Below are positions 32,291-40,957 of a DNA stretch of 64,000 nucleotides, piece after piece. Position numbers and translations under genes: made by a program. The stretch spans positions 23,838 through 87,837 of the forward strand of contig JANWVF010000107.1 in NCBI GenBank assembly GCA_025056965.1, in the 5' to 3' direction. The first letter of the stretch is position 1. The number at the start of each line of letters is the position of its first letter. The DNA is from Thermoflexales bacterium (lineage in GTDB: Bacteria; Chloroflexota; Anaerolineae; J036; Brachytrichaceae). The notes under the pieces are model-generated. The model was not told the DNA's origin, searched no databases, and saw only the letters and a list, made by a program, of their open reading frames with translations.

Positions 32291-32342
32291 GGTTGGTTGT
32301 TAGGTTGTGAGGTTGTTAGGTTGATGGGTTGTTGGGTGATGT
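32291..32342. repeat. Left octanucleotide array of inverted-array element A
   Basis: GGTTGTTA GGTTGTGA GGTTGTTA GGTTGATG GGTTGTTG GGTGATG, period 8, directly after the ilvC start codon. Confidence 0.85.
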
Positions 32343-32746
32343 TGCACGCTGTTTTTGAGTCGCGTGACGTTTTTGTTGAGCAGCGATTTGCTTGCGCAGC
32401 GAGGCGCGCAGGCCGCCAACCAACGCGCGCACTTTGCGCGCCTGCTCGTAGTGCAAATCGAACTCGGTTTGCGTGACGTATTGCTCGTCAAGTGCGGCGT
32501 ATAGCAATGACTGAACCTCGGATACGGACCGGCCAGCCATGCCAAGGAAGCGAGCGAACTCCACCTTCGACTCGTTGTCGAATCCTTCGGCAATGTTAGT
32601 CATGGCTGAGACTGAAGCTGCGCGTATTTGTGCGCGCAGCTCCAGATCGCGGCTGAATGCGGCTTTCCCACTGAGCTGGTAAACATCTGGCGAAGCTTGC
32701 GTGCCTCTTGCCAGACTATGAGGTCCTCGAAGCGTCTGACGAGCAT
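32316..32746 (-). pseudogene. Four-helix-bundle protein (S23/IVS-like), apparently frameshifted
   Basis: N-terminal frame MLVRRFEDLIVWQEARKLRQM (from 32746) and downstream frame VYQLSGKAAFSRDLELRAQIRAASVSAMTNIAEGFDNESKVEFARFLGMAGRS are joined by a 1-nt frame change at about 32684-32687. Confidence 0.8.
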
Positions 32747-32814
32747 GGTCGTTCAGTCGTGATTAATTCGGTTGTCAGGAATCCGGGTTACTGATTGCAG
32801 TTCGAACGGAACAA

Positions 32815-32850
32815 CGTGGCAACCAGGCAACCCAGCAACCTTTCAACCTC
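32815..32850. repeat. Right octanucleotide array of inverted-array element A (inverse of left array)
   Basis: Minus strand GGTTGAAA GGTTGCTG GGTTGCCT GGTTGCCA CGTTG, starting at the ilvN stop codon. Confidence 0.82.
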
Positions 32851-33355
32851 TTGTCATCGCAATGCGGCCGGTGCGGACGACTTCGAGGATGCCGTAGTCT
32901 TGCAGCACGCTGAGGATCGAATCCACTTTTTGCTCTTCGCCGGTGACCTCGATTATGAGGGATTCCTTCGCCACATCTACCACTTGGCTCTGGAACATGT
33001 CGGCGATCTGTTTAATCTCGCCGCGGTGTTGTGCGTCGGTCACCCGCACCTTGATCAGCGCCAGCTCGCGCACAACCGTCGGCAAGTTGGTCACGTCCTG
33101 CACGTCAATCACGTTGACCAGCTTGTAGAGGTTGCGCTCCACCAGTGCAGCGTTGGTCTTGCTCGCGTCAATCACGATAGTCATGCGCGAGATGGTCGGG
33201 TCTTCGGTGGTGCCGACGGCCAGGCTCTCGATGTTGAAGTTGCGCCGGCGCATCAAGCTGGCCACGCGGTTGAGCACGCCGGGCTTGTTCTCCACCAACG
33301 CCACGAGCGTGTGTTTGGTCGGGTTCTTTTGGGCTTCGATTCGGTCAATGAGCAT
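32843..33355 (-). CDS. ilvN: Acetolactate synthase small subunit
   Basis: KHTLVALVENKPGVLNRVASLMRRRNFNIESLAVGTTEDPTISRMTIVID; KLVNVIDVQDVT. Confidence 0.95.
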   Translation of the reverse strand: MLIDRIEAQKNPTKHTLVALVENKPGVLNRVASLMRRRNFNIESLAVGTTEDPTISRMTIVIDASKTNAALVERNLYKLVNVIDVQDVTNLPTVVRELALIKVRVTDAQHRGEIKQIADMFQSQVVDVAKESLIIEVTGEEQKVDSILSVLQDYGILEVVRTGRIAMTRG

Positions 33356-37564: not shown

Positions 37565-37647
37565 AGTTGTTGTTCGCGCCGGGGCGACGGTTGCCCTGCT
37601 GCAAGACGAGCCGCAACCTCCGGCAATATGGTTGCAAGTATACGTGA

Positions 37648-38247
37648 CTAATTTGTGCGTGGGCCTTTGGCAGGGATGATCAACCGCTGGCCGGCGCGCA
37701 CCAGTCCGGGGTTGGCGATTTCGTTCACGCGCAGTAGGTCGGCGAGCGGCACGCGAAACTTCGTCGCGATCTCGCTGAGCGTCTCGCCGCGCCGCACCAT
37801 GTAGATGAACCACCACGGACTCTCGTCGGGGTGGAGCTTGTCCGCCGGCAGCTTCAGCACTTGGCCAACTCGGATGACTTGCGCGTCATTCAGGCCGTTG
37901 AGGAGCTGGATGGCTGCAATCGAAGTACCGAACCTGGTGGCGATGGTGGACAGCGTATCGCCTGGCTGCACGGTGTATTCCCCAGCAGCGCGCAAGGCTG
38001 GCCGGCTCGATGTCGTCGTTGGGGTGGGTGGAGCAGCCGTGGGAGTTGGCTGAGCCGGCGTGGGCGTGGGGCTGGCCAGCGGCGTTCGACCGGGCGCGGG
38101 TGCAGCCGTCGGGATATCGGCCAGTTCGCGCGCGATGCGCGTCTGCATCGCGCGCGGGTCGGGCGTCGGTGTTTCCGCCGGCTCGCCCGAGCACGCGGCC
38201 AGGAGTAACCAACTTGCCACCAGGAGCAGCGCGTGCTTGCGCATCAT
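37648..38247 (-). CDS. Lipoprotein with two LysM domains
   Basis: [12 protein letters not shown] lipobox; [37 protein letters not shown]. Confidence 0.85.
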
Positions 38248-38293
38248 CGCTCCGGCGATTATAGGGGGCGGGGGTTACAATCCTCACCGAGTC

Positions 38294-40957
38294 ATGAGCG
38301 CCACCATTGCTGCCGGCGTGGCCAATGTCAGCGATGTGCTTGCGCGCTTGCGCGCCGATCGCGAATTCATGCGCGATGTGTGTGACTGGCAGCGCGCGCC
38401 TGCGCGGCCAGCGCGGTTCGCCGATTTCCCCGCTGCGCTCGATCCGCGCCTGCGCGAGGCGCTGAAGCGGCGCGGCATCGAACAGCTCTACACGCACCAG
38501 GCACAGGCGATCGCGGCGACCCTGCGCGGCGAGCACGTCGTGGTCGTTGCGAACGCCGCCGGCGGTAAGTCGCTGTGCTTTCACGCGCCCATCCTCAACG
38601 CGCTGTTGCGCGATCCGAACGCACGCGCGTTGTGCCTCTTCCCCACCAAGGCGCTGTCGCAAGACCAACTCTCCAATCTTTCATCTTTCGTGGCCCATCT
38701 TTCATCGAGTGGGGACGGCCTAATGAAAGATGAAAGGTCAAAGATAATCCATACCTACGACGGCGACACGCCTCAAGCCAAGCGCGCCGAGATTCGCCGC
38801 GACGCGCGGGTGATCATCACCAACGCCGACATGCTGCACATCGGCATCCTGCCGCACCATACGCGCTGGGCGGCGTTCTTCAAGCATCTGCGCTACGTCG
38901 TCATTGACGAGATGCACGCCTATCGCGGCATCTTCGGCAGCCATGTCGCCAACGTCATCCGCCGGCTGAAGCGCCTGTGCGCGTTCTATGGGTCGAACCC
39001 GGTCTTCATCCTGGCGTCGGCCACGATCGCCAATCCGCGCGCGCATGCCGAGCGCCTGATCGAAGCGCCGGTGACGCTGGTGGATGACGACGGCAGCCCG
39101 CACGGCGAACGCAACGTCATCATCGTCAACCCGCCGCTGACCGACCCACAATTCGGCCTGCGCCGCAGCGCCGATTTCGTCGCCCGCGACATCGCCGCGC
39201 GCTTCATCGCCGAAGGTTTGCAGACGATCTGCTTTGCGCGGTCGAGGAACACGGCGGAGATTTTGCTGGCTTACTTGCGGGATATGAGGCTGGGAGTGGG
39301 GAGTCGGGAGTCGGCATGTCCCACTTCCCACTCCCCACTTCCGATTCATGGCTATCGCGGCGGCTATTTGCCCGAGGAGCGGCGCGCGATCGAACAGGGC
39401 TTGCGCGAAGGCAGCGTGCGCGGCGTGGTGGCGACCAATGCACTGGAGCTGGGGATTGACATCGGCGCGCTGGACGCCTGCGTGATGCTCGGCTATCCGG
39501 GCAGCATCGCCAGCTTTTGGCAGCAGGCCGGGCGCGCCGGCCGGCGGCGAGGCGCCAGCGTCGCCGTCATGGTTGCCACGCCCGACCCGCTCGACCAGTA
39601 TCTTGCCGCACATCCTCAGTACCTCTTTCAGCAGTCGCCTGAGCACGCGCGCATCGCGCCGGACAACCTCGGCGTGCTGGCGGCACACGTCGCATGCGCG
39701 ACCTTCGAGTTGCCGTTCGCGCGCGGCGAACGATTCGGCAGCGTTCGCGTAGACGAGCTGCTCGATGCGCTAGCCGAAGAGGGCGATGTGCACGCCAGCG
39801 GCGTGGGCGCGCTGCCGCTGTTTAGAGGCGCGGACGACTCGCAGCCCGCGACGCGCTACACCTGGGTCGGCGAGAGCTATCCGGCAGACCGCGTGAGCTT
39901 GCGCGGCGCCGGCGAGCGCGTCAGCATCGTGGACGAGCAGGGCAATCTGATCGGTGAGACCGAACGCCACACTGCCCCGGCGCGCGTTCACCCGGGCGCG
40001 ATCTACCTACACCAGGCCCAGACCTACCTCGTGACCGAGCTGGACTGGGAGATGGGCCGCGCCGTGGTGCGCCGCGTGGATGCCGACTACTACACTCAAG
40101 CGAGCGCCGTGTCCGAGGTGATGGTGCTGCGCGAATTCGACCGGCTAGAACCGGCGCAGTCGCCGGCGGGTAACTGCGCGCCCGCCAGTGGCGAGATCGA
40201 AGTCACGACCACCGTCGGTCGCTATCGCCAGGTGCAGTTCAACACGCACCGGACGTTGGGATGGGGCGACGTGGACTTGCCGTCGCAGAAGCTGCTCACC
40301 ACCGGCTACTGGTTCGCCATCCCGGAGGCCATCTGCAAGCAACTGGAGAAAGAGGGCATCATCGGCCTGCCCAACGACTACGGCCCGAACTGGGAGCAGC
40401 AACGACAGGCCGCCCGCGCGCGCGACGGCTATCGCTGTGCCATCTGCGGCAAGCCCGAAAGCCCGCACCAGCAGCACCACGTGCATCATCGCCGGCCGTT
40501 TCGTTCATTCGGCTATGTGCGCGGCGAAAACGACTTCTATCTGCAAGCGAACGACCTGGATAACCTGATGACGGTATGCCCGTCATGTCACGCGAAGATC
40601 GAGACGGCCGAGCCGGTGAACCAGGCGTTGAGCGGCCTGTGCTACTTGCTCGGCAATCTGGCGCCGTTGTTCGTGATGTGCGATCCGAGCGACATCGCTG
40701 CCACGTTCGACACGGCCAGCCCGCACACGCACCTGCCGACCATCACGCTATATGAGCTGGTTCCCGGCGGCACCGGCCTGGCCGACGAGCTGATGGCGCA
40801 TCACGTGGAATTGATGAAAATGGCGGCGCAGCGCGTACAGGAGTGCCCGTGTGAGCATGGCTGCCCATCGTGCGTCGGCCCGGTGGATCCGGCGATGGAA
40901 ACGCATGGGCGCAATCTGAAGAAGGATGTGGCGCGCCTGATCGCGTTGATCCGCTGA
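38294..40957 (+). CDS. DEAD/DEAH helicase with DUF1998-type C-terminus (MrfA/YprA-like) and embedded HNH domain
   Basis: [103 protein letters not shown]...[17 protein letters not shown]-terminal [13 protein letters not shown]. Confidence 0.9.
38675..38746. repeat. In-frame inverted heptanucleotide-array hairpin 1 inside the helicase gene
   Basis: ATCTTTC ATCTTTC gtggccc ATCTTTCAT ... ATGAAAGAT GAAAG gtca AAAGAT; inner 9-bp perfect stem, 17-nt loop. Confidence 0.75.
39292..39342. repeat. In-frame inverted heptanucleotide-array hairpin 2 inside the helicase gene
   Basis: GGGAGTG GGGAGTC GGGAGTC GG - CATG - TCCCACT TCCCACT CCCCACT TCC. Confidence 0.8.

Follow-up and report, generated by a model that had tools for sequence, protein, structure and literature searches.

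Four-helix-bundle genes enclosed by inverted arrays of short tandem units: a putative class of minimal mobile element in bacteria

Introduction

What are the four structures, each built of short tandem units, a spacer and the inverse array, that crowd into about 7 kb of a Thermoflexales bacterium genome (Chloroflexota; assembly GCA_025056965.1, contig JANWVF010000107.1, positions 23,838 to 87,837; these 64 kb are hereafter the window), and why do two of them contain a gene for a four-helix-bundle (4HB) protein of the S23/IVP family (PF05635/TIGR02436) while two are cargo-less? The reading that we favour, at a probability of roughly three in four, is that they represent a class of minimal mobile element not described before, ~0.4–0.6 kb long and made up of one 4HB gene and two inverted arrays, which the product of this lone open reading frame (ORF) would recognize.

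The S23/IVP family is widespread and structurally solved, its function is unknown, and it is best known so far from inside rRNA genes. A match between protein subfamily and array unit supplies the 4HB protein with a ligand and a role that can both be tested. No description of a link between 4HB genes and tandem arrays was found in the open-access literature; subscription papers and preprints lay outside the scope, and our claim to novelty is limited accordingly.

Results

Four structures of one design

A detector independent of unit sequence, which asks for a tandem period of 6–10 nt plus an inverted match, found four inverted arrays in the window, as compared with a mean of 0.125 per order-3 Markov shuffle (one detector setting). 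All four are present where the first-pass annotation had placed them, two with a PF05635 gene and two without (positions are those of the window).

31271–35765, minus strand: host operon, ilvB – element 2 – ilvN – element 1 – ilvC
32290–32337, plus strand: element 1, arm beside ilvC; GGTTGNNN array, ~5–6 units of 8 nt
32427–32747, minus strand: element 1, 4HB gene 1 (PF05635); in-frame domain 32427–32705
32805–32849, plus strand: element 1, arm beside ilvN; inverse array with CAACC core, extending to the ilvN stop codon
~33374–33446, plus strand: element 2, arm beside ilvN; GTCGGTCAA-like array, 9 nt
33388–33789, minus strand: element 2, 4HB gene 2 (PF05635, E 8e-25; profile positions 16–105)
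33790–33829, plus strand: element 2, arm beside ilvB; inverse array with GACCTGA core
38676–38745, plus strand: element 3, cargo-less (ATCTTTC)n ... (GAAAGAT)n, 7 nt; arms 38676–38698 and 38723–38745
39292–39342, plus strand: element 4, cargo-less (GGGAGTS)3 ... (SACTCCC)3, 7 nt; arms 39292–39314 and 39319–39342

The arms are inexact inverted repeats, whose units match in the core and less so at variable positions. The two 4HB genes score 49.7 and 87.5 bits with PF05635 (cut-off 33.8) and 48.8 and 84.8 with TIGR02436 (curated cut-off 24), and they are the only PF05635 genes in this 3.1 Mb genome. Both look damaged or degenerate. The N-terminal part of gene 1, MLVRRFEDLIVWQEARKLRQ (from ~32747), lies in a different frame owing to a 1-nt frameshift, which may be either a 1-nt deletion or an assembly error, and gene 2 has lost ~15 N-terminal residues, its TTG start abutting the array. 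Elements 1 and 2 are therefore probably no longer active there.

The gap between ilvN and ilvC measures 555 nt in the window as compared with 38–94 nt in genomes of the same genus and near it. Accordingly, element 1 is an insertion of ~0.5 kb, present within the compared set only in the window genome. The ilvB–ilvN junction is occupied in G000, G004, G011 and G020 (G, C and L numbers are our labels for genomes, contigs and loci) by 4HB elements of differing 4HB clades and with differing units. Elements 3 and 4 lie in frame in two different loops of one helicase gene (38294–40957); their arrays are shared with G006, and in further genomes the units at these places are either degenerate or different.

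Association of 4HB genes with inverted arrays

The first-pass annotation linked the arrays to the 4HB gene, and this link proved to extend far beyond the window. PF05635 is present in 43 of 60 relatives, in which 61 of the 79 4HB domains fetched (77%) are enclosed by inverted arrays of 7–9-nt units. Across at least 12 phyla the same holds for 54 of 80 4HB loci (68%), 53 of these 54 having a period of exactly 7, whereas none of the 80 was enclosed in any of 12 shuffled sets. Since the 80 loci are the relatives scoring highest against a single canonical 4HB alignment, they represent that canonical subfamily. The association is strongly supported. The median element is 488 nt long, with one 4HB ORF inside (53 elements). 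Matches to the 4HB family occur on 35 plasmids, and a search of phage records returned none. At one locus (L367, on G170:C203) a 4HB gene lies within a tandem duplication, 99.5% identical, with a period of ~525 nt.

Such enclosure of one gene family, at 77% and 68%, would be left unexplained if quasipalindromic arrays merely formed and were homogenized by polymerase slippage and template switching, with 4HB genes inside them by chance. This passive origin, which we disfavour and regard as quite improbable, agrees with changes in array length by unit steps (5 versus 3 units in L389 and L390), with a gradient from GAATTGA to GAAGTCA within one array and with the differing units found at one site in sister genomes, but it accounts neither for a period specific to the 4HB subfamily nor for the position-specific constraint and the ~428-nt presence/absence polymorphism described below.

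Unit specificity and constraint

The canonical 4HB subfamily has the 7-nt unit T[CAT]AG[CT]TN in 13 phyla, in the same orientation in 100 of 106 arms. As a forward test, 298 genomes of the class were searched for relatives of the L127 4HB, which has 8-nt units; every one of the 23 L127-like 4HBs found enclosed, a few of which had been seen before, has 8-nt units, with the consensus GG[TA]GA[C]NN. A third subfamily has GTTGNNN/GTCGNNN-like units of 7–9 nt. Over non-orthologous sites, array similarity tracks 4HB identity (Mantel r 0.28, 0/1000 permutations). The initial impression that the unit sequence is not conserved was thus mistaken: members of one 4HB subfamily share it even between phyla, and it is therefore not arbitrary.

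Conservation within the unit is uneven. Adjacent canonical units mismatch at 1.3% at position 4, the central G, and at 53% at position 7, the last; in the 8-nt family the figures for the corresponding constrained and variable positions are 0% and 36%. Rates so unequal between positions are not what neutral slippage would produce. Between arms, position 7 agrees at 0.41 for units of the same ordinal versus 0.44 for any pair, so that the variable positions are unmatched from arm to arm; this argues that conservation serves core recognition more than pairing between the arms. Judged from sequence comparison, then, each 4HB subfamily has its own period and core in a fixed orientation, core positions are strongly constrained while others vary freely, and the arrays form the ends of the element. 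Cognate recognition of the array by the 4HB protein is on these grounds well supported.

The agreement at position 7 also bears on an explanation at the RNA level, namely that the arms pair in the transcript, with the 4HB ORF in the loop, and that RNase III excises the stem as an intervening sequence (IVS), spread being incidental. A 4HB ORF with terminal complementarity is indeed what characterizes the RNase III-excised 23S IVSs (PMC4990558), sense orientation and position at operon junctions would suit such a process, and two elements fold better than their shuffles (z −2.8 and −3.7). However, position 7 does not match unit by unit between the arms, the number of units differs between arms, and a stem has no need of a repeated, subfamily-specific core. 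We consider this explanation unlikely, albeit the strongest of the competitors.

Two ideas about the units were abandoned. A G-rich 5′ arm as the basic polarity holds in Chloroflexota (52/58) and is weak in the canonical family (33:20), where core orientation is what stays fixed; polarity was therefore recast as core orientation. Capture of the unit from the target, suggested by GGTTG at the ilvN end, was given up, since it is the 4HB subfamily that the unit follows.

Mobility

Plasmids provide filled and empty alleles of the same site. In Trichormus variabilis plasmid C and a Scytonema plasmid the element sits in a conjugation operon, whereas the plasmids of Fremyella, Nostoc linckia and N. 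carneum (97.5–98% identical) have the empty junction AAAAAGTAA-TTAACAAATAAAT-ATG. The empty site reads AAAAAGTAA^TTAACAAATAAATATG; the filled allele keeps all host bases, the segment present or absent being ~428 nt, and a decayed copy occupies the site in Nostoc C052. A second pair, a filled plasmid of Calothrix and its empty counterparts, shows insertion into a 3-nt gap from stop to start.

Copies at unrelated sites complete the picture expected of a mobile element. L309, L310 and L311 come from three bacterial families and are 75–77% identical over ~515 nt, which corresponds to the element, while the neighbouring proteins are unrelated. Elements may also be more or less diverged than their surroundings at one and the same site, where 4HBs are 70–74% identical between flanks that are mostly 90–98% identical or, conversely, 100% identical between flanks of 88–99%; elements are therefore exchanged at fixed sites.

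Placement is narrow: the elements lie in operons, immediately behind a stop codon. The median distance from the upstream stop codon to the start of the element is 1 nt across phyla and −1 nt in Chloroflexota, and the element ends 10–15 nt ahead of the next start. Between co-directional neighbours it lies in sense orientation in 34 of 38 cases across phyla (34:4) and in 33 of 34 in Chloroflexota (33:1). The 4HB protein is evidently under purifying selection, the median dN/dS being 0.10 (21 pairs). Presence and absence at near-identical sites, recurrence at unrelated sites and replacement at fixed sites are thus apparent at the level of sequence, and the mobile character that the first-pass annotation had attributed to these structures is strongly supported.

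Five units and a pentamer

Of 53 canonical elements, 33 have a right arm of exactly five units without interruption, and the left arm has a mode of five, followed by four; the best background runs do not exceed three. Five chains make up each of the solved homologues, XCC0516 from Xanthomonas campestris (2gsc) and 2rld, and the Xanthomonas S23p has been described as a toroidal homopentamer (PMC4990558). It may be, then, that one array unit is bound per subunit of the pentamer.

A ring that binds five units recalls TRAP-like autoregulation, in which the 4HB protein would bind an array in its own leader RNA and the whole would be a fixed regulatory cassette, unable to move. An array immediately ahead of the 4HB start, the ~five units for a pentamer and the purifying selection would all fit. 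Such a cassette has no use for arrays at both ends, nor does it explain the many cargo-less copies, the empty sites, the homology limited to the element or the replacement at sites, and we hold it to be slightly less probable still than RNA-level excision.

Discussion

A possible mechanism

The class of mobile elements proposed here would work as follows. Each arm would present ~4–5 copies of a 7–9-nt unit, to which a homopentameric 4HB protein would bind, each subunit taking one unit, be it as single-stranded DNA, RNA or duplex; the bound protein would draw both ends together, and movement would use a host enzyme, invoked here because the element encodes neither transposase nor reverse transcriptase (RT). 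Elements would settle straight after a stop codon, in sense, within operons, and the cargo-less inverted arrays would be their non-autonomous relatives or remnants, continually reshaped by slippage. If movement is as supposed, this would be a mobile element without a recombinase of its own, whose place is the gap of a few nucleotides separating a stop codon from the next start. It is tempting to go further, and here we lean only slightly towards acceptance: in over a dozen bacterial phyla a non-enzymatic pentameric ring would read about five subfamily-specific words per end and drive stop-codon-adjacent insertion via host enzymes, and the class would explain the heptamer repeats of cyanobacteria, Xanthomonas and Beggiatoaceae as well as the origin of the 23S rRNA IVSs. 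One explanation would then be offered for three things, the S23/IVP protein and two long-standing puzzles hitherto kept apart, the heptamer repeats and the rRNA intervening sequences.

Several observations weigh against the class proposed here. About one-quarter to one-third of 4HB genes have no detectable arrays. The sequences share phylogeny, and the counts therefore overstate independence; co-inheritance alone could account for part of the match between unit and subfamily, though not for the position-specific constraint. Arms in Chloroflexota peak at 4–5 units with a long tail and range from 3 to 25, so that the number five characterizes the canonical family. Among 53 elements scanned, no consistent target-site duplication was found (best 30% versus 24% identity), a possible GTAA repeat being seen at one filled site only, that of the conjugation operon. 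Empty and filled alleles could in principle reflect precise loss. Finally, neither transposase nor RT is encoded in the element, and a resident transposase acting in trans was not searched for.

Comparison with known systems

The nearest known relatives are the 23S rRNA IVSs with an S23p/IVP ORF of Leptospira, Coxiella, Salmonella and others, which share the protein family, a length of ~0.43 kb and an ORF flanked by complementary ends, and whose origin and spread are unexplained (PMC4990558). Complementary ends are found here too, as inverted arrays (61/79 and 54/80) and in the two folds with z −2.8 and −3.7. In contrast, an IVS is defined by its location in rRNA, while the present elements lie in protein-coding operons and loops, those of the window in the ilv operon and a helicase gene, and end in arrays of a subfamily-specific unit. 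A location in 23S rRNA was also considered for 4HB loci lacking arrays, and no Rfam match was obtained in the 20 cross-phyla loci without detected arrays.

The heptameric repeats GGGAATC of Xanthomonas, GGGGA(C/T)T and the STRRs of Nostoc/Anabaena, and TAACTGA of Beggiatoaceae resemble the arrays in being intergenic, dispersed tandem units of 7 nt. In the passages of the two papers on which we draw, Rehm et al. give 70–75 inverted GGGAATC pairs per Xanthomonas genome, without general association of heptamers with mobile elements (PMC4692102), and MacGregor describes the TAACTGA repeats as phylogenetically scattered (PMC4679880); unlike the present elements, the repeats are not linked in these passages to a four-helix-bundle gene.

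The Avd protein of diversity-generating retroelements (DGRs) is a homologous four-helix bundle (PMC10053308), and this resemblance of PF05635 underlies the suggestion of the first-pass annotation that mobility might be linked to an RT. The present elements, however, have no RT, template or variable repeat and are moved or replaced as discrete units. In a profile search over 60 genomes, RVT_1 was absent from the 4HB carriers G000, G002, G003, G008 and G006, the last a single contig with seven 4HB genes, so that an RT-based route is unlikely in those genomes. A divergent RT missed by PF00078 would provide a loophole. RT-linked mobility thus found no support; it is largely refuted in the carriers free of RVT_1, and we deem it the least probable of the explanations considered.

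REPINs/RAYTs and miniature inverted-repeat transposable elements (MITEs) share with the present elements the many short inverted copies per genome and a possible autonomous/non-autonomous relation. As in DDE transposons and MITEs, terminal inverted repeats are found, here as arrays and not as single repeats, whereas a target-site duplication of fixed length and a transposase gene within the element are not (for resident transposases in trans, see above).

Cargo-less arrays

The cargo-less short forms noted in the first-pass annotation do exist. In pieces of up to 20 kb sampled from three genomes, 22 strong gene-free inverted arrays were found in 740 kb of G006 (0.35 expected), 20 of them with period 7 and with a median loop of 18 nt, as compared with 2 in 400 kb of G008 and 0 in 263 kb of G000. 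The G006 array sequences have matches at dozens of scattered positions in several sister genomes, and a single intergenic site may have different units in sister species. Within G006, by inspection, four of six 4HB units are identical to units of its own cargo-less arrays, suggesting a MITE-like relation of autonomous to non-autonomous forms. On the whole, the interpretation first given to the four structures is partly supported.

On cyanobacterial plasmids, short forms stand beside 4HB elements and have array ends in common with them (L399:3835–3981, L399:4628–4824 and L400:237–433), which suggests the same relation; their interiors are unrelated and resemble other dispersed repeats. In L097 (7101–7221; G006) the unit types run in the order GAATTGA, GAATTCA, GAAGTCA, GAGGTCA, as if units drifted along the array. 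The plasmids of L389 and L390 are 97% identical, and their left arrays, with five and three units, differ by exactly two units; array length therefore changes by whole units.

Other observations in and around the window

A second copy of the helicase gene in the same genome (G000:C119:6719–9340, in L120), 84% identical and with both loops lacking clear arrays, may be either a paralogue or admixed sequence. Just upstream of ilvB, at 35650–35685, a terminator-like hairpin, AGCCCTCC...GGAGGGCT, is perhaps an attenuator. The 21/42-nt repeats at 42180–42272, in the ORF 42009–42752, encode a QRLDQL-type coiled coil and are an ordinary coding repeat.

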